From Methanothrix harundinacea 6Ac (lineage in GTDB: Archaea; Halobacteriota; Methanosarcinia; Methanotrichales; Methanotrichaceae): DNA of 64,000 nt. The notes under the pieces are model-generated. The model saw nothing but the letters and a program-made list of their open reading frames with translations, did not search any database and had not been told where the DNA came from. Of this stretch, positions 21,263 through 52,032 are shown in pieces; the stretch's first letter is position 1; every line of letters starts with the position of its first letter. A program made the position numbers and the translations under genes. Location: the NCBI RefSeq assembly GCF_000235565.1, contig NC_017527.1, forward strand, positions 992,001 through 1,056,000. Direction: 5' to 3'.

Positions 21263-23224
21263 TCACCGCTGCCACTTTCTCGCGAAGGTGGCGATGAAGG
21301 CGGCCCACATGAAGGTGCCGATTATGGCTTGAATTCCTGTCACTATTTTATAATGTCCTATCGGATTATAAAGGGCATAACCGGGAGTCGCTGAAGTTGC
21401 TATGCTGAACCAAATATAATCAAACCATGCGCTTGTACCTTCAACAGCGTCAAAATACCAGTAATATGAGGCAAAAAGAAAGACCATTAAAATCCAAAAA
21501 CCAAACAATCTAATAGGATGAACTCCGTATCCGAAAATACCTTGAATAAAAACGTATTCGAATAGATCGTATCTTCCGAGCCTCCAAATTTTCGATCCAA
21601 CCAAACTCAGCCATTCGGATACTTGCATTTTCCAGGGCCATGATATCTTTCTTGTTCCTTTGACTCCTTTTTTTATCCTTATTGCTGCCATTTCCCTGTA
21701 AAAGTAATAATCAGCGTCGTCTTTATTTCCTAGATCTTCCATCTTTCTTTTTACTATTCTGCACACTACCTCTTGAGACCATGGATGGCAAAATTTCGCA
21801 TCTTTGAATGATACCCACTTGTGAAATTGATCCTGATTGAAGTGGGCATTCCCGCCGAACTCGGCTTCCTCGAATATGGCATCCTCACCGAATTCAACTC
21901 TCCCAAAGTTGGCGACTCCACCAAACTCCGCTTTTCTGAAGTCGGCAGTTCCAGCCGTGAACTTGGCTCCGCTAAAATTGGCATACCAGTTGAACTTAGC
22001 TCCCATAAAGGTGGCACTCCAGCTGAACTCGACACCCTCGAATTTGGCATCCCCACCAGTGAACTTAGCTTCTCTGAAGTAGGCTTTCCCACCGAACTCA
22101 GCTCCACTGAAGTCGGCAGTTCCGCCTGTGAACTTAGCTTCCCCGAAGTTGGCAGTACTGAGTAATTCGGCTTCCACGAAGGAGGCATCTTCACCGAATT
22201 CAGCTCTCCCGAAGTGGACGTCTCCACCGAACTTAGCTTTCCCGAAGTAAGCATCGCCACCAGTAAACCTAGCTCCTATGAAGGTGGCTTTCCCACCGAA
22301 CTCAGCTCCACTGAAGTCAGCAGTTCCGCCTGTGAACTTAGCTCCTCTGAAGTTGGCAGTACTGCGTAATTCGGCTCCCATGAAGGTGGCATTCCCACCG
22401 AACTCAGATTCTCTGAAGTCGGCAGTTCCACTTATGAACTTAGCTTCCACGAAGTATGCACGTCCACTTGTGAACTTAGCTCTCCTGAAATTCGCATACC
22501 CGATGAATTTAGCATTCCTAAAGTCGGCAATTTTGCCAGTAAATTTTGTCTCTTTGAAGATGGCAATTCCGCCGAATTCGGCTCCTACGAAAGAGCAATA
22601 CTCTCTAAACTCAGCTCTCCCGAAGAGAGCGTCTCGACCGAAATTAGCTCCTCTGAAACCGGCAATTCCGCCTGCGAATTTGGCTTCCATGAAGTTGGCA
22701 ATTTCCTCGAACTCAGAACCCTCAAATTTGGCGTCTCCGCCGAACTTAGCTCCCTTGAAATTGCCATATCCCGCGAACTTAGCATACCTGAAGTCGGCAT
22801 ACTTGCCGAATTCGGCTCCTTTGAATCTGCAATTCGCGCCTGTAAATTCAGCTCCCCAGAAGTTGGTAATTCCGCCTGTGAACTTAGCTTTATCGAATTT
22901 GGCATCCCCATTGAATTTAGCTCTCATGAAGTTGGTACTAACATCGAAATTAGTTCCCAGAAAGGTGATTTGCTCCTGAAATTTGACATTGTAAAATTTT
23001 ACCTCACTCCGAATCTCAGAATTTGTGATTGTTATCGGTGAGATTATCACTTTCCGCTGTTCAGACAAAACCCCTTGCTCCATTGGCAACTCCAGCCCGC
23101 TTATATCCAGATCTCCCTCGACGATGACGCCGTCGTACTCGACGTCCTCGCCCCGCTCGATCTTGGCCAGGATCTCCCTCGCCTGAATCACGGGGCGCTG
23201 GTCTGAGCTGGTCTCCGGTTCCAT
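21263..23224 (-). CDS. pentapeptide-repeat protein with C-terminal 2-TM pore-like domain
   Basis: 653 residues from the ATG at 23224 that starts MEPETSSDQRPVIQAREIL, shared with the paralog at 23278-24786. Residues ~25-50 carry YDGVIVEGDLDISGL, then about 430 residues of AxFxxAxF pentapeptide repeats (right-handed quadrilateral beta-helix). After a linker, two membrane helices flank a pore-like segment WFDYIWFSIATSATPGYALY and end in AAFIATFARKWQR. The position equals the K+ channel filter, but TVGYG is replaced by ATPGY. The protein is probably a membrane channel or sensor with a large cytoplasmic beta-helix; activity is unknown. The 3' end is duplicated near 20040. Confidence 0.85.
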   Translation of the reverse strand: MEPETSSDQRPVIQAREILAKIERGEDVEYDGVIVEGDLDISGLELPMEQGVLSEQRKVIISPITITNSEIRSEVKFYNVKFQEQITFLGTNFDVSTNFMRAKFNGDAKFDKAKFTGGITNFWGAEFTGANCRFKGAEFGKYADFRYAKFAGYGNFKGAKFGGDAKFEGSEFEEIANFMEAKFAGGIAGFRGANFGRDALFGRAEFREYCSFVGAEFGGIAIFKETKFTGKIADFRNAKFIGYANFRRAKFTSGRAYFVEAKFISGTADFRESEFGGNATFMGAELRSTANFRGAKFTGGTADFSGAEFGGKATFIGARFTGGDAYFGKAKFGGDVHFGRAEFGEDASFVEAELLSTANFGEAKFTGGTADFSGAEFGGKAYFREAKFTGGDAKFEGVEFSWSATFMGAKFNWYANFSGAKFTAGTADFRKAEFGGVANFGRVEFGEDAIFEEAEFGGNAHFNQDQFHKWVSFKDAKFCHPWSQEVVCRIVKRKMEDLGNKDDADYYFYREMAAIRIKKGVKGTRKISWPWKMQVSEWLSLVGSKIWRLGRYDLFEYVFIQGIFGYGVHPIRLFGFWILMVFLFASYYWYFDAVEGTSAWFDYIWFSIATSATPGYALYNPIGHYKIVTGIQAIIGTFMWAAFIATFARKWQR

Positions 23225-23277
23225 CGCTATTACCATTCAATGACAAGGAATTTAAAACTCTCTTCTTATGAAAGCAC

Positions 23278-24786
23278 TCACCTGATGAACTTGCGGGCCA
23301 AAACGACCACGAAAAGCGCCATGAGCAAGTATCCCAGGATCGCCTCTATCATAGCTAAAGATCTTAACCATCGTTCTTCTATCAGAATATCGGCCTCACC
23401 TCCGGTGAACGTAATCAATCCCCCAGTAAACGTCATTATGCTAAAATAGAAGCTTTCAAAAATCGAGTCGAAATAACCTAAAAAAATGATACCTATAATA
23501 AAAACAACACCGAAGATTGAAAGGACAGTGTGAAGGGGACGAACACCATACCCACATGATATCCAAGAGATGATGTCCATAAATTTTGACCAATCCCAGC
23601 CTTTTTCATTATCATACAGCTTCTTCCGGTCTTGGCTCTCCCTTCTGTATTGATAGTAGCAATCATCAGCGTCATCGAACTGCTCCAAGGCTTTGAAGTT
23701 TTTTATTAATGCCAAGTAAGCGGGGCCGCTGTAAACTAGCTTGTCCTTGATTGAATTCCACGTTATATATAATCCTTCAGATTTAAAATTGCCCAATTTC
23801 AGCTTGTTATCGAACTCAGCTTTCATGAAGTTTGCATACGCACCGAACTTAGCTCCCGAGAAGCCAGCTTCTCCGCTGAACTTGGCTCCTCCGAAGTCGG
23901 CATCCGCGCCGAACGTGGCGGCTCCCCCAAGGTTGGCTGCCCCGAAGGTGGCATCCCCGCGGAATTTGGCGTCAATGAAGAATGCAATCCGGCCGAACGT
24001 GGACCCCATGAATAACGCATTGCCCCCGAACTCCGCGTCAATGAAGAAGGCATTACCGCCATTGAACTCAGTCCACAAGAAGTTGGCATTCCCACCCGAG
24101 AACACTGCATACGCGAAGTTGGCATCTCCGCCGGCAAATTCGGCTTTCACGAAGTTAGCATTCCCGGCGAACTTGGCACCCTGGAAACGGGCATCTCCGC
24201 CTGTGAACTTGGCGTCCGTAAAGTGAGCACCACCATCCGAGAAGACCGCAGACGCGAAGTCGGCATTTTTGCCGAATTTGGCTGCGTTGAAGTTTGCACA
24301 CCCGCAGAATTTGGTTATCCAAAATTTAGCATCCCAACCAAACTTGGCCCTGAAGAAGTAGGCATCACCGCTGAACTCAGCTTCTCCGAAGCAGACACTC
24401 CCAGCGAAATTGGCCTCTGTGAAGGAAGCATTCCCGGTGAACTTGGCCCCTATGAATGAGGCATCCCCGCCGAAATAGGCTCCATTGAAGTTGATGGGCT
24501 CCTGAAAGCGAGCATTACTAAAGTTTACCTTACCTTTGATCTCAGAGTTGGTGATGGTCATCTCCGATACTATCACCTTCAGTTCGTCGGACACTCCGAG
24601 CCCCACGCTGTGCACACTGTCGGACTCCCTGTCCACGTCCTCAGTGCGCAGGTCCAGCCCGCTTATATCCAGGTCGCCCTCAACGATCACGCCGTCGTAC
24701 TTGACGTCCTCGTCCCGCTCGATCTTGGCCAGTATCTCGCTCGCTTGAATCACTGGGCGCTGGTCTGAGCTGGTGTTTGGTTCCAT
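23278..24786 (-). CDS. pentapeptide-repeat protein with C-terminal 2-TM pore-like domain (paralog)
   Basis: 502 residues, same architecture as the following gene: a near-identical N terminus (MEPNTSSDQRPVIQASEIL), a YDGVIVEGDLDISGL strand, about 270 residues of pentapeptide repeats, a charged linker (DDADDCYYQYRRESQDRKK), then two membrane helices. The second membrane block reads FYFSIMTFTGGLITFTGG, then RSLAMIEAILGYLLMALFVV, which is the layout of bacterial 2-TM cation channels. The filter is TFTGG in place of TVGYG. The two genes are tandem on the minus strand, about 50 bases apart, and likely arose by duplication. Ion selectivity and ligand are unknown. Confidence 0.85.
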   Translation of the reverse strand: MEPNTSSDQRPVIQASEILAKIERDEDVKYDGVIVEGDLDISGLDLRTEDVDRESDSVHSVGLGVSDELKVIVSEMTITNSEIKGKVNFSNARFQEPINFNGAYFGGDASFIGAKFTGNASFTEANFAGSVCFGEAEFSGDAYFFRAKFGWDAKFWITKFCGCANFNAAKFGKNADFASAVFSDGGAHFTDAKFTGGDARFQGAKFAGNANFVKAEFAGGDANFAYAVFSGGNANFLWTEFNGGNAFFIDAEFGGNALFMGSTFGRIAFFIDAKFRGDATFGAANLGGAATFGADADFGGAKFSGEAGFSGAKFGAYANFMKAEFDNKLKLGNFKSEGLYITWNSIKDKLVYSGPAYLALIKNFKALEQFDDADDCYYQYRRESQDRKKLYDNEKGWDWSKFMDIISWISCGYGVRPLHTVLSIFGVVFIIGIIFLGYFDSIFESFYFSIMTFTGGLITFTGGEADILIEERWLRSLAMIEAILGYLLMALFVVVLARKFIR

Positions 24787-33295: not shown

Positions 33296-33306
33296 TAACG
33301 ATGGTA

Positions 33307-33333
33307 TTTTATATAATATTTAATATTTTAGAC
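33307..33333 (+). promoter_or_regulatory. AT-rich promoter of nitrilase-domain gene
   Basis: TTTTATATAATATTTAATATTTTAG, 38-64 bases before the ATG at 33371, contains a good TATA element. The composition break begins right here, at the end of the DJ-1 gene. Confidence 0.5.
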
Positions 33334-33370
33334 GAATTTCAGAAGAATAACGACATGCGAGATGGTATAA

Positions 33371-35293
33371 ATGATTGAAAATGATTTAAATAATTATTTA
33401 ACTAAATTAGATTTATATGTTAGGCAATCTATAGAGCTTGTTGAGAAAGCATCAGAGTTGTACGGAAAACTCATTGATGATAGCATCACAAAAGCTGAAT
33501 TTATTGATATTTTGAAAGGCCTATCAGGTGAACTAAAAAGGATCTATGCTGAAATCGGTGATTTTTCGATAGATGTTCTTGCACCCGATCCGTTTCATGA
33601 TTTAGATTTGGCATTTCGTTGTTTTGTTTCCATGTGTGATAATTACATGATTTTTCTTTCTCGTTTAGGAGAAAATGAGAACGGGAATCACTGGCTAATT
33701 AATAAGACTCTAGAGGATGTTCAGCGTGATTATAAGAAACTCCTTGGATGTAGAAAAAACCCTAAAGTACTAGCAGTTTCTGAATTCCATATTCCAAAAG
33801 CTATCATCCTCGATTCGAAATCTCGTAATTTAGAGGCAATGCTACAAACTTTAAGCGACGAAGGAGTTGTTTGCACCAAACTTGAATTATCTTCAGATGC
33901 AGATTTAGCTCAGCTAAATATCGAGCTAGTGACTGGTGACCCTGAGAGAAAAGATCTGCTAGATCTTGCTTTTAAGTGTTTTCATGTTATTGAAGACGAC
34001 TTGGCGTCCTCATCTCATGTGAGTGTGGTTTATATAGGGTTTAGAATCGGCGACAGAAAACCGCACAGTTGGCTCAGGATTGAAACGGAGAAAATTCTCA
34101 AGCTCCTCTCGAATAAGCCATCAATTGATGAATTTGAAAGAACAATAGAATTTCATTACTTTGAAGACATTATTGCTGCGGAACAAATACTTGTGGATCT
34201 AGCAACACATTCATCTGCTCTGAAAGGGGATTTTGAGGTCAAGGAAGCTTTGACGATCGTTTCTGAAAAATTAAAAATCACTAAAAAAGCATGTGCGAAT
34301 CCTGACCAACTCGAAGATTTAATTCTTAGATGGTCTTTTTCTCGATCTCTTCTAAGTTGCATTTCCGTTGTCTTAGAAGTAGTTTCGGTGACAAGGGATC
34401 CAGATGCTGCGCGAACAATTGTACGTCTTTTTGATATTTATCGCAAACCTGATGAAATCGACTCATCAAAAGATTACTCGAATCTGCTTTCTGAAATTTC
34501 CGACTTAATTGAGACTTTGAAATTCCGCTATGTCGTTCTTCCGAATGTGCGCAGAGTCAGCGTTGGTTCGTACGTTAAACCTTTTTCGCGGATCGCCTTA
34601 GTACAGCCGAAAATATCATTTGATGAATGTTATACTAAAGATGATTATGCATTAAATCGGATTGGTTTAGAGCAGAACCTAAAAATATTTGATGATATGC
34701 TTGATCAAGCAGTTCAAAAAGATGCAGATGTCATAATCTTTCCTGAAATATTTTTTCCAGCATCTGAGCTTGATCATCTTAAAATGAAATCGAAAAAGAA
34801 TAATATAATCATCATTACAGGACTCGACTATGAGAAAATCTCCCCGGAATATTTCGTCAACTCATGTGCAGTAGCTCTTCCAGACGGCCGTGTGATCAGA
34901 CAGAAAAAATTATTTAAATCTAAATATGACTCCCCACGGATGGTAGAAGGCGATGAACTTTTTGTATTCAAAACACATTTCGGAAATTTTTCCGTATTCA
35001 TCTGTTATGATTATCTCTCAGCCCAAGATCTCATCAAGTTGAGAGGCGTAATCGATACTCTTTTTGTACTAACTTTTAATCCTGATGTAAAATCTTACAA
35101 TGAAAAAGCGATAGCAGATGCCTACAGCACTTTATACGGCTTTATCTGTATTGTGAATGCATTTGATCCCGACCATTCACCTCCGATTCCGGGCGGATCT
35201 GGTTTCTATGGACCCTGCAAACGTGATAGGGTTATTTGCCGATTTGAAGATGGAGAGCAAGGGATGAAAAATAGTGGAACTTCCTCTTTATGA
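33371..35293 (+). CDS. large AT-rich protein with nitrilase (carbon-nitrogen hydrolase) domain, frameshifted end
   Basis: 640 residues in this frame. Residues 1-400 are helical, acidic and unrecognised. From about 408 a nitrilase-superfamily domain begins (IALVQPKISFDE), with the catalytic triad Glu in FPEIFFP (about 457), Lys in RQKKLFKSKYDSP (about 515) and Cys in FICYDYLSA (about 544). The frame then leaves the domain at GEQGMK and reads an unrelated NSGTSSL tail. The proper end of the domain, KIVELPLYDLHEARVGGK, continues in the next frame, so one A too many in 35267-35271 splits the gene. Strongly AT-rich against its neighbours: transferred DNA. Confidence 0.8.
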   Translation: MIENDLNNYLTKLDLYVRQSIELVEKASELYGKLIDDSITKAEFIDILKGLSGELKRIYAEIGDFSIDVLAPDPFHDLDLAFRCFVSMCDNYMIFLSRLGENENGNHWLINKTLEDVQRDYKKLLGCRKNPKVLAVSEFHIPKAIILDSKSRNLEAMLQTLSDEGVVCTKLELSSDADLAQLNIELVTGDPERKDLLDLAFKCFHVIEDDLASSSHVSVVYIGFRIGDRKPHSWLRIETEKILKLLSNKPSIDEFERTIEFHYFEDIIAAEQILVDLATHSSALKGDFEVKEALTIVSEKLKITKKACANPDQLEDLILRWSFSRSLLSCISVVLEVVSVTRDPDAARTIVRLFDIYRKPDEIDSSKDYSNLLSEISDLIETLKFRYVVLPNVRRVSVGSYVKPFSRIALVQPKISFDECYTKDDYALNRIGLEQNLKIFDDMLDQAVQKDADVIIFPEIFFPASELDHLKMKSKKNNIIIITGLDYEKISPEYFVNSCAVALPDGRVIRQKKLFKSKYDSPRMVEGDELFVFKTHFGNFSVFICYDYLSAQDLIKLRGVIDTLFVLTFNPDVKSYNEKAIADAYSTLYGFICIVNAFDPDHSPPIPGGSGFYGPCKRDRVICRFEDGEQGMKNSGTSSL

Positions 35294-35921
35294 TCTCCAT
35301 GAAGCAAGAGTCGGTGGCAAGTCCTCTGTCATGAAATCGATTCCTGCAAATTTTGAAAGAATATCATTGGCCATCGATTATCCTGAAGAAGAAATCGACG
35401 ATATTCGACAAACAGTCCTAACGAAAATCAAAGAAGAAAAACGGCGCGCTTCTCGGTATGGCAAAAAAGATTATGGATCCCTTGAAAGACAGAATATCTC
35501 CCAAGACTTGGAATCTGACCTCAATAAGCAAAAATACGCTGTTATGGATTTGGAACCAGCACATACAGGCATTGCTAAACGTTTGAAAGGGTTTTTGCTC
35601 ATTAAAAAAGGGCTTTCAAAAAGCGAGATAAAATCTATAATTCATGCAGCTAATGAGGATATAAAAAAACGTGAGTTTTACTCGAATGAAATCCAAGAAG
35701 CTAAACATAAAGGTAAACCAGCAGATGTTGTGTGGCTATACATTTTCAATGAACGTCGGCATCGAAACTATTTAGCAGCATCTGATTTTTATGAATACTT
35801 CGTATGTAGGACCCAATGGATTAATCCCAATCTTGATCAACGCTTTTCTCCTTTACCACTAAAAGGTGATGAAATCTTTGATGATATTGAAATTAAATGG
35901 AACAAAAACTATCCTAATTGA
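35274..35921 (+). pseudogene. 3' part of the nitrilase-domain gene, out of frame
   Basis: 215 residues starting VELPLYDLHEARVGGK, the normal last strand of a nitrilase domain, directly after a frameshift. The remaining ~190 residues are an unrecognised basic helical domain (KEEKRRASRYGKKDYG, IAKRLKGFLLIKKGLSKSEIKSIIH, FNERRHRNYLAASDFYEYFVCRT). With one A removed at 35267-35271 the two pieces make one protein of about 850 residues. GTG 35274 could in principle restart translation. AT-rich like the first part. Whether this is decay, sequencing error or a programmed frameshift cannot be told here. Confidence 0.7.
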
Positions 35922-35966
35922 ATATTTATATTATCTTCCTCTTATTGGTCCTTTGATTTTCAAAGT

Positions 35967-35998
35967 GTCGGGAAGCTAAAGCGTCGGGAAGCTAAACT
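35967..35998. repeat. 16-bp tandem duplication at kinase 3' end
   Basis: GTCGGGAAGCTAAA occurs at 35967-35980 and again at 35983-35996, a 16-base period. The second copy includes the kinase stop codon (TAG on the minus strand). It lies at the right edge of the AT-rich island and may mark the insertion junction. No matching copy is seen at the left edge near 33300. Confidence 0.6.
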
Positions 35999-38900
35999 GA
36001 GACCCACCTATAATTCTCCCTCGGTACAGATATCTCGAACCTCGCCCCCCGCCCCTCCTCGCCGGTCTCGGTGATGGTCATCCCGGTGATCCCCAGGATC
36101 TCCTGGCTGAGGAAGAGGCCGTAGCCGGTGTGCCTCCCGAAGGCCTGGTCGAAGATCCGGGCCTTCATCCCGGCGGGGATCCCCAGGCCGTCGTCCTCGA
36201 CGGCGATGACCCCCTCGGCCTCCACGCCCCTCTCTCTCTCGAAGAAGGAGACCCGGACCCCCGTGACGCCTCCCCCGTGGCGGAGGGAGTTCTCCAGGAG
36301 GTTGCAGAAGACCTTCTCCAGCATCGGATCGGCGAAGACCTCGACCGTCTCCGTCTCCACCTCGAGCCGGACCTGCCCCCGGGATATCTCGGCGGGGGAG
36401 GCGGCCGCCGCCCGCCGGACCGCCTCGCTGACCCTCTGCCACTCCGGCGCCTTGACCCCCATCTCCTGGTAGTCCCGGGCGAAGGCGAGCTGCCTTTTGA
36501 TCGTCTCCGCCACCTCCCCGATCCGGTCGATGTACCTCTCGGCGGCCGGGTCCCGGGGGATCCCCTCCCTCAGGAGGTGGACGTACCCGGAGAGGGCGGT
36601 GATCTGGTTCTGGATGTCGTGGCGGGTGATGCTGCTGAGGAGCTTCAGCTTCCGGTTCGCCTCCTGGAGGGCCTCATGGTACCTCCGGATCTCGGTGATA
36701 TCCTGGGTGATCCCCGTCATCCTCAGGGGGCGGCCCGCTCCGTCTCTAGCCATCACCTGGCCCCGGTCGTGGACCCATATCCACCGGCCGTCCTTTCGCC
36801 TCAGCCGGTAGTCGATCTCGTAGTGGGGGCTCCTCCCGGCGAAGTGGTCGTCCAGGGCCGCCATCACGCCCTCGAAGTCGTCGGGGTGGATCATCTCCTC
36901 CCTCTCCCGGACGTTCCCCACCAGGTCGCCCTCTGAGCAGCCGAGGATCTCCACCAGCCGCCGGTTCCGGACCACCTCCCCCGTCTCCACATTCCTGTCC
37001 CAGATCCCCAGGTTCGCCCCCTCGATGACGAGCTTCAGCCCCTCCTCGTTCTCCTGGAGGGCCATCTCCGTCTCCTTGATCTCGGTGACGTCCCGGATCG
37101 ACTCGATCGCCCCTGCGATATTTCCGTCCCTGTCGAAGAGGGGGGAGGCGGTCCCCCAGACGTAAGACCCCCTCCCGGTCCTGGGGGGGGTCACGTAGGC
37201 CTCGGCGAAGAGGGTATCCCCCTCTCTCTTGACGTAATGGTATAGCGACTCCAGATCCTCGTCCTTCGAGAAGATCATGTCGATGAGGATAGGCCTTTTT
37301 GTCCCGTAGAAGACCTCGCCGTAGGCGTAATCCCCCTTCCCGACGATCTCGTCCTTGGGGACGCCGCTCATCTCCTCGATCGCCCGGTTCCAGGCTATCA
37401 CCCTCCTCTCCCCATCTATGACGAAGGTCGGGTCGGGGAGAAAGTCGATGATCTCCAGCAGCTGCTTGTGGGCCTGGATCAGCCTCTCCTCCGCGAGCTT
37501 CCTCTCGGTGATCTCCTGCCCCTGGATGATGGTGGCGACGACGGTCCCGTCCTTCTCCGACCGGATGTTCGCCGAGTTCCAGAGGACTATCCTGACGGTC
37601 CCGTCCCGGCAACGGATGGGGATCTCCACCGACTCCCACCCCTCCCCCTCCAGGGCGTAGGCCATCTTCGCCAGGGCCTCCTCCCTCTCCTCGTCGGGGA
37701 GGAGGATCGTCGCCTCCTTGCCGATCACCTCCTCGGCGGCGTAGCCCGTCAGCCGCTCGAAGGCCCTGTTGAAGCGGATGAACTTCATGTTAGGCCCCCA
37801 TACGGCGATGGGGGCGTTGGCGTAGTGGAGGAGGCTCTCCAGGTAGTCCGTCGCCTCCCGGAGGGCCAGCTCAGCTCGCTTCCTATCGGTGACGTCCCTG
37901 ATCGACTCGATCGCCCCGACGATCCTCCCGTCGTCGTCGAAGAGGGGCGAGGCGATCGCCCAGATGTAGGCCCCCCTGCCTCCGTAGAGGTGGGGGACGT
38001 AGACCTCGGCGAAGACGGCGTCTCCCCTCCGGCTGAGATGATCGTACTCCTTCACTATCCCGGAGTCCTCGGAGAAGATCGAATCGATCAAGACCGGGGT
38101 CTCAAACCCGTAGAAGGGCTCTCCGTAAGAGTAGGGCCCCCTTCCCACGATCTCCCCCTTGGAGACGCCGGTCATCTCCTCGATCGCCCGGTTCCAGGCG
38201 ATGACGGTCCTCTTCTCATCGATGACGAAGGTGGCGTCGGGGAGGATGTCTATGATCTCCTGGAGCTGATGATGGGCCCGGCAGAGCTCCTCGTTCATCC
38301 TCTTCTGCTCGGTGATCTCGGAGAATATCGTCGCGAACCTCCCCCTCCCTATCGAGAAGGCGGATATGCTGAAGTGCCTCCCCGTCTCCGGGAAGCAGCC
38401 TTCGAACTTGGCGGGGCACCCCGTCTCGTCCACCCTCGAGTATATCTCAAGGAAGGGGGGGACCTCTGAGGGGAAGATCTCCGAGGCTCTCCTTCCGATG
38501 GCCTCTTGCGCCCTCCACCCGGTGAAGAGCTCGATCTGGGGGTTTGCGTCCCTGACGAGGTAGTCGGTGGCCCTCCCCACCGGGTTGCGGAGGATCTCGT
38601 AGAGGACGAAGCCCTCGTTCATATTCTCGAAGAGGGCCCGATACCTCTCCTCGCTCTCGACGACCGCCTTTTTGGTCCTCATCCGCTCCGCTGCCTGCCG
38701 GATCTGGTGGGTCAGCTCCGCGTAGAGGACCTTCGGGTTTGCGTCCTTCTGGAGGTAGTAATCGGCTCCGTTGTTCAGGGCCTCGATCACCACCTCCTCC
38801 CGTCCCTTCCCGGTGAAGAGGATGAAGGGGACCTCCGGGTCCCGGCTTCGGACCCATTTGAGGAAGGATAGGCCGTCCATCTCTGGCATCACGTAATCGG

Positions 38901-39054
38901 AGACGATGACGTCGTAGCGGCCGTCCTTAAGCCTCGCGACCGCCTCCACCGCCGACGCCACGCCGTCGACCTGGATATCTCCGGACCTGCCCAGGAATAT
39001 CCTCGCGATCTCCAGGATGACGGGGTCGTCGTCTACCATCAGAACTCGGATCAT
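35992..39054 (-). CDS. response-regulator / multi-PAS hybrid histidine kinase
   Basis: 1020 residues. Order: REC domain (about 1-120, phospho-acceptor Asp in VIVSDYVMPEMDG), then five PAS/PAC units (YRALFENMNEGF, LPDATFVIDEKR, YANAPIAVWGPN, LPDPTFVIDGER, GLKLVIEGANLGIWDR), a dimerisation region with ITRHDIQNQITAL as the phospho-histidine site, and a HATPase domain (NLLENSLRHGG, VEDDGLGIP, GYGLFLSQEIL). No membrane segments are seen, so it is cytoplasmic. PAS units 2 and 4 are near duplicates (WNRAIEEMTGV / WNRAIEEMSGV). This methanogen-style kinase has no cognate output regulator adjacent. Signal unknown. Confidence 0.92.
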   Translation of the reverse strand: MIRVLMVDDDPVILEIARIFLGRSGDIQVDGVASAVEAVARLKDGRYDVIVSDYVMPEMDGLSFLKWVRSRDPEVPFILFTGKGREEVVIEALNNGADYYLQKDANPKVLYAELTHQIRQAAERMRTKKAVVESEERYRALFENMNEGFVLYEILRNPVGRATDYLVRDANPQIELFTGWRAQEAIGRRASEIFPSEVPPFLEIYSRVDETGCPAKFEGCFPETGRHFSISAFSIGRGRFATIFSEITEQKRMNEELCRAHHQLQEIIDILPDATFVIDEKRTVIAWNRAIEEMTGVSKGEIVGRGPYSYGEPFYGFETPVLIDSIFSEDSGIVKEYDHLSRRGDAVFAEVYVPHLYGGRGAYIWAIASPLFDDDGRIVGAIESIRDVTDRKRAELALREATDYLESLLHYANAPIAVWGPNMKFIRFNRAFERLTGYAAEEVIGKEATILLPDEEREEALAKMAYALEGEGWESVEIPIRCRDGTVRIVLWNSANIRSEKDGTVVATIIQGQEITERKLAEERLIQAHKQLLEIIDFLPDPTFVIDGERRVIAWNRAIEEMSGVPKDEIVGKGDYAYGEVFYGTKRPILIDMIFSKDEDLESLYHYVKREGDTLFAEAYVTPPRTGRGSYVWGTASPLFDRDGNIAGAIESIRDVTEIKETEMALQENEEGLKLVIEGANLGIWDRNVETGEVVRNRRLVEILGCSEGDLVGNVREREEMIHPDDFEGVMAALDDHFAGRSPHYEIDYRLRRKDGRWIWVHDRGQVMARDGAGRPLRMTGITQDITEIRRYHEALQEANRKLKLLSSITRHDIQNQITALSGYVHLLREGIPRDPAAERYIDRIGEVAETIKRQLAFARDYQEMGVKAPEWQRVSEAVRRAAAASPAEISRGQVRLEVETETVEVFADPMLEKVFCNLLENSLRHGGGVTGVRVSFFERERGVEAEGVIAVEDDGLGIPAGMKARIFDQAFGRHTGYGLFLSQEILGITGMTITETGEEGRGARFEISVPRENYRWVSV

Positions 39055-50844: not shown

Positions 50845-52032
50845 TTAATCGCCATATTTTTTTGTTGTAAAAGAAGTCATTACCACCCATAATGGTTCAG
50901 GCCAATAGTAAACATCATAAACTCCACCACCACAGCAATCAACATGTGCACTACCACCACCACGACAAATATTTTTCGTATCATAAATCTCTAAATAGTT
51001 TGGAGGAAATCGTGCATGAATTCCTACAAAAACGTTTCCATATTCTGGGCGAATCCAAACAAAATACCATTCAAGAGGCAAATCCGGAGGTGGACCGTCA
51101 TGTCGATCATTAGTTGCGTAGAAAGCACAAGCACCATCTGGGCTTAACAAGCCAGTGCCTCTACCAGAGATATTCCTAGGTTTGAGATTAAATTTATTTA
51201 AATAATTTACATAAGTAATCCAGAGGCCCTTAGCAATACCCCATGGATCTTCGTTATAGGCAGTTATCCAAGATGGGGCTTCACCATCCAAATCTGAATC
51301 GTCTTCTACGAATTGCATCTTAGCTATTTGGTCAAGTTCTGAATTAGATAATCTTATAATATCGATCCGAATTTCAGCCCTATCATCCGTCAATATCGTA
51401 GTTGAATTAACATTATCACCAACATCTGGGTCTCTTTTTACCCAACCAGTTGGATTTTCATATCTAAACTTAAGTTTTGCTGGCTTCTTGCCCCAACTTT
51501 TTTGCCATCCTTGCATTTGCTTACTTAAATGTCGTTGGATTAGCTTTCCAAATTCATCTATATCTTCGTAAATACAACATAAATTGTGCAGCCTTAATTT
51601 TGCTTTAAACTTATTAATTTTATCTAGCTCATCAACATCTATTTCACTACGTTCAGATGGTAATATCTTTTTGAAATAAAACATAATTTTAATCTGATTC
51701 GAATCCTTACGATATCGTTCGTAAGCTCTCTCATACTCTTCAACTGTCCCTGAATCTGCTCGTGTTGTAGCAGTCCCTAGGCGTTTCCAAATTATACCGA
51801 TGAAAATATCATAATTATAATTATCTATTTGTTTATTAATAACATCTTGTGGGTCCTCACCTACACCAGGACAAACGTCACGTTCCCATGTAATGAGATC
51901 GAGATGAGTACCGAGTTTATCACTCCATGTTCGGTTCAATTCATCAACAACATCATCTAATTTTCTCCGTTCTTTAGTCACATCTCCCGGAGATGCGACA
52001 AATACCCTAATGTGTGAAAGATATCTCGACAT
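50845..52032 (-). CDS. DUF4062-domain protein, AT-rich, defence-like
   Basis: 395 residues. The N-terminal ~110 residues match DUF4062 (IRVFVASPGDVTKERRKLDDVVDELN, LITWERDVCPGVGEDPQDVI, NYDIFIGIIWKRLGT), a TIR-related fold found at the N terminus of NLR-like and other conflict proteins. The C-terminal half (about 190-395) is unrecognised, rich in Trp/Tyr, and ends with GGGSAHVDCCGGGVYDVYYWPEP. Typical NLR partners (NACHT/ATPase) are absent, so the protein is a short two-domain form. Markedly AT-rich compared with its flanks, consistent with horizontal transfer. Role in antiviral defence is inference. Confidence 0.8.
   Translation of the reverse strand: MSRYLSHIRVFVASPGDVTKERRKLDDVVDELNRTWSDKLGTHLDLITWERDVCPGVGEDPQDVINKQIDNYNYDIFIGIIWKRLGTATTRADSGTVEEYERAYERYRKDSNQIKIMFYFKKILPSERSEIDVDELDKINKFKAKLRLHNLCCIYEDIDEFGKLIQRHLSKQMQGWQKSWGKKPAKLKFRYENPTGWVKRDPDVGDNVNSTTILTDDRAEIRIDIIRLSNSELDQIAKMQFVEDDSDLDGEAPSWITAYNEDPWGIAKGLWITYVNYLNKFNLKPRNISGRGTGLLSPDGACAFYATNDRHDGPPPDLPLEWYFVWIRPEYGNVFVGIHARFPPNYLEIYDTKNICRGGGSAHVDCCGGGVYDVYYWPEPLWVVMTSFTTKKYGD

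Follow-up and report, generated by a model that had tools for sequence, protein, structure and literature searches.

A 2.7-kb AT-rich island (GC 0.37) in the genome of Methanothrix harundinacea 6Ac carries a single acquired gene that, judged by analogy with known systems, rather probably encodes an immune protein of the abortive-infection type acting as one polypeptide, in which a C-terminal domain (D) and a helical bundle (H) would sense infection or drive oligomerisation and a central nitrilase would be the toxic effector. The island was studied in a window of 64,000 nucleotides (NC_017527.1, positions 992,001 to 1,056,000, forward strand), part of a 2,559,043-bp chromosome (assembly total 2,571,034 bases), and it lies between the stop of a DJ-1 gene (33295) and the end of a kinase gene (35992). 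The positions of its parts are collected in Table 1.

Across the island GC ranged from 0.34 to 0.40 versus 0.60-0.70 outside, and no other 2.6-kb segment of the 64 kb had a GC as low as the one starting at 33301 (0.367; mean 0.609, sd 0.061), which confirmed the sharp fall from DJ-1 to the kinase described in the original prediction. The gene itself had a GC3 of 0.30 compared to 0.86-0.91 in its neighbours. The full-length protein was present in just 3 of about 200 relatives; a scan of genome contigs returned two orthologues (L021 and L022) and nothing more, the N-terminal profile gave no additional match across 345 genomes sampled from the phylum, and no relatives were found among viral contigs and phage records. 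The L021 orthologue shares the DJ-1 side of the window, while in the congener G002 the gene is missing from the DJ-1 locus (L095) and is found at another site (L022), whose surroundings are mostly of low GC (about 0.32-0.56) and also contain GmrSD, a fragment of HsdM, Mrr and a type IIG restriction-modification enzyme; the two genomic sites are unrelated, one of them being a restriction island. Horizontal acquisition, as had been proposed, is thus supported by GC3, by the patchy spread and by the empty site in the congener. Within the leader, an archaeal TATA-box-like stretch, TTTTATATAATATTTAA (about 33306-33322), stands ~50 bases 5' of the start codon and may be the promoter. The right end of the island holds two perfect copies of the 14-mer GTCGGGAAGCTAAA (35967-35980 and 35983-35996), which are possibly a junction scar; a repeat family was ruled out because no further copy exists elsewhere in the genome. 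Another island of one gene and low GC (0.37; 50848-52032, minus strand) lies in the window and encodes a 394-aa protein that matches the PADLOC candidate family PDC-S60 and whose N-terminus, on inspection, looks like DUF4062; DUF4062 has been reported to be a TIR-like NADase in antiphage systems (PMC13174449). Elsewhere in the window, two adjacent minus-strand genes (21266-23236 and 23281-24786) share a near-identical N-terminus (SSDQRPVIQA.EILAKIER.EDV.YDGVIVEGDLDISGL) and are probably a tandem duplication.

Table 1. Features of the AT-rich island and its right neighbour, in window coordinates
Feature	Position	Strand	Basis or remark
AT-rich intergenic leader	33296..33370	+	direct sequence reading
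ORF 1, 640 aa: N-terminal part and nitrilase domain	33371..35293	+	ORF list; orthologues open throughout
Helical bundle H, probably a diverged form (residues about 12-124)	33404..33742	+	profile and hhalign matches
Orphan region (residues about 125-402, ~280 aa)	33743..34576	+	no library or PDB match
Nitrilase (CN_hydrolase) domain	34577..35278	+	PF00795; RTasNitrilase, UG5-nitrilase and CARF_nitrilase profiles
Glu459	34745-34747	+	window numbering
Lys513	34907-34909	+	window numbering
Cys545	35003-35005	+	window numbering
Run of five A	35267..35271	+	reading frame lost here relative to the two intact orthologues
ORF 2, 215 aa: nitrilase end, linker and domain D	35274..35921	+	different frame; collinear with both orthologues
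Domain D, compact alpha/beta, ~130 residues, C-terminal	35514..35918	+	profile, tblastn and hhalign matches; AF2
Right neighbour: large response-regulator/PAS/histidine kinase gene	35992-39054	minus	

In the window the gene is spread over two reading frames. The coding unit of ~850 residues inferred earlier from these frames was corroborated by same-genus genomes, in which ORF 1 and ORF 2 align end to end with the single open frames of Candidatus Methanocrinis natronophilus (850 aa, 80% identical; L021:3357-5906) and of MAG 57_489 (858 aa, 77% identical; L022:9315-11888); since both orthologues are single open frames, ORF 1 and ORF 2 are one gene broken at the run of five A. A conserved programmed frameshift is unlikely, because the A-run is missing from both orthologues and neither needs a shift. 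Pairwise dN/dS was 0.12-0.26 over the gene (nitrilase, 0.12-0.15; N-terminal part, 0.22-0.26; C-terminal part, 0.19-0.22), showing that purifying selection acts along its entire length, and the frameshift is therefore either a recent inactivation in strain 6Ac or a 454 homopolymer error. Reads by 454 tend to miscount homopolymers, which is why the shift may be erroneous. The 6Ac genome was sequenced by Roche 454 (PMC3349665). For this strain only, the loss of frame where both orthologues are open leaves a tentative possibility that the window copy is a dying, functionless pseudogene, but its dN/dS 3' of the frameshift stays at 0.19-0.22 and its 2.5 kb hold no second lesion, and the function of the family is untouched by the shift in one strain.

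The predicted nitrilase domain with an intact Glu-Lys-Cys triad was verified. It scored 40.7 bits with PF00795 (cut-off 23.2), which places it in CN_hydrolase, and the Glu459-Lys513-Cys545 triad was invariant among 37 relatives; in a Pfam search of the protein CN_hydrolase was the sole match, with no NACHT/STAND NTPase. Matches in the defence library were better than that to PF00795 (RTasNitrilase, 4.3e-21; RT_UG5-nitrilase, 3.5e-20; CARF_nitrilase, 1.5e-9), and among solved structures the nitrilase-domain profile matched NAD synthetase, amidases and DRT1, the DRT1 structure 9yfd being the best. DRT1 is described as an abortive-infection protein whose nitrilase effector acts after oligomerisation and whose substrate is not known (PMC13275509). 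The nitrilases of DRT1 and the other class 3 UG/Abi reverse transcriptases (UG1, UG5; 9yfd) are C-N hydrolases of the same broad type, and there as here a large protein of several domains likely kills through its nitrilase, whereas the island protein has no reverse transcriptase, a different N-terminal part and the additional C-terminal D. An RVT_1 (PF00078) search of the three genomes with the gene (G000, G002 and G007) gave no match, the same search being positive in three control genomes; although its nitrilase is of DRT type, the island protein is therefore not a DRT.

The 37 nitrilase relatives were mostly from Methanosarcinales and carried DUF4062-NACHT-HEAT, HEAT or TPR parts. These Methanosarcinales proteins (L025, L030, L026, L035 and others) likewise are large multi-domain proteins with a homologous nitrilase and the invariant triad, but they carry NACHT, HEAT or TPR parts where the island protein has D, H and the orphan region, and neither D nor H occurs in any of them. 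Two of them (L025:4085-10099, plus strand; L030:504-4901, minus strand), of 1466-2005 aa, join DUF4062-NACHT-HEAT (L025 by Pfam, L030 by inspection) to a C-terminal nitrilase, which would put two putative effector domains in a single STAND protein. Four relatives are fused to peptidyl-arginine-deiminase-like domains and are, as their make-up suggests, ordinary polyamine-type enzymes; several of these fusions were entered in the nitrilase tree as controls. On a Bradyrhizobium conjugative plasmid (NZ_CP066352.1, CDS 148016-149893; L066), we also observed a gene whose nitrilase region resembles that of the island (29%, 3e-10), near HNH endonuclease, TIGR02391 and helicase genes.

The C-terminal region had been described as an unknown domain of ~190 residues. 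It is indeed absent from the Pfam and PADLOC copies used, as are two of the N-terminal partner domains of D, but it consists of a linker followed by the ~130-residue domain D. AlphaFold2 gave D a confident alpha/beta fold (pLDDT 87.5, pTM 0.84), with a conserved Arg and Trp; the D profile had no match in the PDB, and a fold search matched no solved structure and returned one viral prediction (A0A6M5CED9, E 4e-3, TM 0.52-0.60). A profile of D built from the three nitrilase orthologues only matched otherwise unrelated proteins (E 2e-23 to 4e-4), and the reversed profile, used as a control, matched nothing; because the ORFs of this test were drawn from genomes already chosen by D searches, more weight is given to the tests by tblastn, hhalign and genome searches. 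By tblastn against all plasmid records, D was found in a Paenibacillus protein (38%, 3e-20) and an Enterococcus protein (31%, 2e-8), hhalign of D against a TIR protein gave 97.8% (1.3e-12), and genome searches also recovered D, which is spread over archaea and bacteria behind differing N-terminal parts. These parts are TIR (TIR_2 in L117 and L118 by Pfam, L119 by alignment, L120 by inspection), a Peptidase_C14 caspase (L098), five hydrophobic segments of membrane type (L088), a conserved domain without library match (L089, L090, L091, L097 and L121), which we read as PD-(D/E)xK nuclease-like from its motifs GPTEIAD and AFVLKGK, and a part of 420 aa (L092 and L093), which we read as HEPN-like from its RNxxxH motif.

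In proteins of the TIR and caspase types, and in most of the nuclease-like type, D is followed by a helical region of ~140 aa, here called H, and the first ~125 residues of the nitrilase protein are probably a diverged H, as suggested by weak scores (E 1e-2 to 1e-5) in both directions. The N-terminal profile of the nitrilase protein matched H of L097 (E 2.3e-5); an H profile built without nitrilase proteins matched the window protein (2.9e-4) and L022 (0.017), and, of 5374 ORFs, no others apart from those of D-H proteins; hhalign gave 86.8% (E 4.3e-6), and the reversed profile matched nothing. The N-terminal ~400 residues had been described as unknown, which holds for the orphan region but not for residues 12-124, with their match to a helical bundle of other proteins. 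A TIR-like N-terminus was rejected (hhalign of the N-terminal profile against TIR domains, 0.1%), no N-terminus in common with other nitrilase proteins was found, and the N-terminal profile had no match among PDB sequences. The full-length AlphaFold2 model, made from three sequences, was poor (mean pLDDT 44), and in a PDB fold search with it only nitrilases were informative; in this low-confidence model the orphan region possibly contains a Rossmann-like stretch (residues 146-240) between helices. D is thus common to the island protein and the TIR-D-H (L117-L120), caspase-D-H (L098) and nuclease-like-D-H (L089, L090, L097, L121) proteins, and H more weakly so. In the D-H proteins the effector is N-terminal and D-H contiguous, whereas the nitrilase protein probably holds the two halves of the module at opposite ends of the chain, H at the N-terminus and D at the C-terminus, with the nitrilase in the middle. 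The TIR-D-H genes (L117:8386-9669, minus; L118:7992-9302, plus; L119:8160-9446, plus; L120:8529-10037, minus) come from four Methanosarcina-type genomes, where they stand isolated amid ordinary genes, and their products matched no other Pfam families. The caspase-D-H gene (L098:11254-12813, plus) lies on an Enterococcus faecalis plasmid (LR961926.1) and is not listed in its record, and in genome G018, of the same family, a nuclease-like-D-H gene (L094:5766-7120, minus) is split into two ORFs by a frame change within D.

The original prediction had raised enrichment of homologues in defence islands. Clear defence neighbours were present at four of about a dozen D loci, namely L022 (GmrSD, IIG RM, Mrr), L093 (IIG RM, PDC-S02), L121 (AbiU/AIPR, dGTPase, a YhcG-type nuclease, Schlafen-type) and L092 (SoFic), and others were isolated amid ordinary genes; this is suggestive and not a measured enrichment. 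Metabolic operons, native composition and housekeeping flanking domains were sought, and none was found.

One module combined with swappable killing domains, in single genes that are patchily spread and lie near restriction genes, is typical of the immune proteins of prokaryotes. There is about an even chance that D-H is an unrecognised sensor or oligomerisation module of prokaryotic immunity, spread over archaea and bacteria and plugged into at least TIR, caspase, membrane, nuclease-like and nitrilase effectors. In the island protein, D and/or H would detect an infection cue or drive oligomerisation, and oligomerisation would turn on the nitrilase, as relatives including DRT1 need oligomers; the active nitrilase would then destroy an essential amide- or nitrile-like metabolite or produce a toxic product, and the infected cell would be halted. 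In other members of the family, TIR or caspase would be the killing part. The earlier proposal of a multi-domain conflict-type enzyme is backed by the DRT and CARF-nitrilase profiles, by the D shared with TIR and caspase proteins, and by the restriction island.

The main rival, which we consider unlikely, is an effector downstream of a nucleotide-signal pathway (type III CRISPR or CBASS-like), in which D or the alpha/beta part of the orphan region (residues about 140-245) would bind a second messenger and activate the nitrilase in the manner of CARF. TIR, nuclease and membrane effectors also serve signal receptors, D is a compact alpha/beta domain with a conserved Arg and Trp, and the CARF-nitrilase family (PADLOC CARF_m7--CARF_nitrilase), which likewise joins a nitrilase to a putative sensor part, matches the nitrilase of the island, with one full CARF-nitrilase (2.6e-282) among its archaeal relatives. 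However, that match spans nitrilase positions 220-376 of 457 only, CARF and SAVED profiles had no match in the N-terminal or C-terminal part, and no recognised signal-synthase gene adjoins the window copy or its orthologues. Nitrilase-fold enzymes are mostly metabolic and the 6Ac genome encodes one other, ordinary nitrilase, but a metabolic amidase or nitrilase with accessory domains, gained for nitrogen metabolism, is improbable given that in the tree the ordinary nitrilases of these archaea, the 6Ac paralogue and the deiminase-like fusions included, make up a separate clade (100/99) with the island protein outside it (its own placement weakly supported, 47/9), that the ordinary paralogue was not recovered by phmmer at E 10, that the C-terminal module is common to TIR and caspase proteins, and that one copy sits inside a restriction island.

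A nitrilase as the killing part of a phage-defence protein has been shown only recently and for one protein, DRT1 (PMC13275509). The shared D-H module is apparently new, and it offers a search handle for immune-like proteins unlisted in the Pfam and PADLOC copies used. The island nitrilase, of the same broad type as that of DRT1, is found without a reverse transcriptase and has D in common with TIR and caspase proteins, and it provides a second, simpler setting for finding the substrate. If this reading is true, the split-module form would make nitrilases a general immune effector, not one peculiar to reverse-transcriptase systems.
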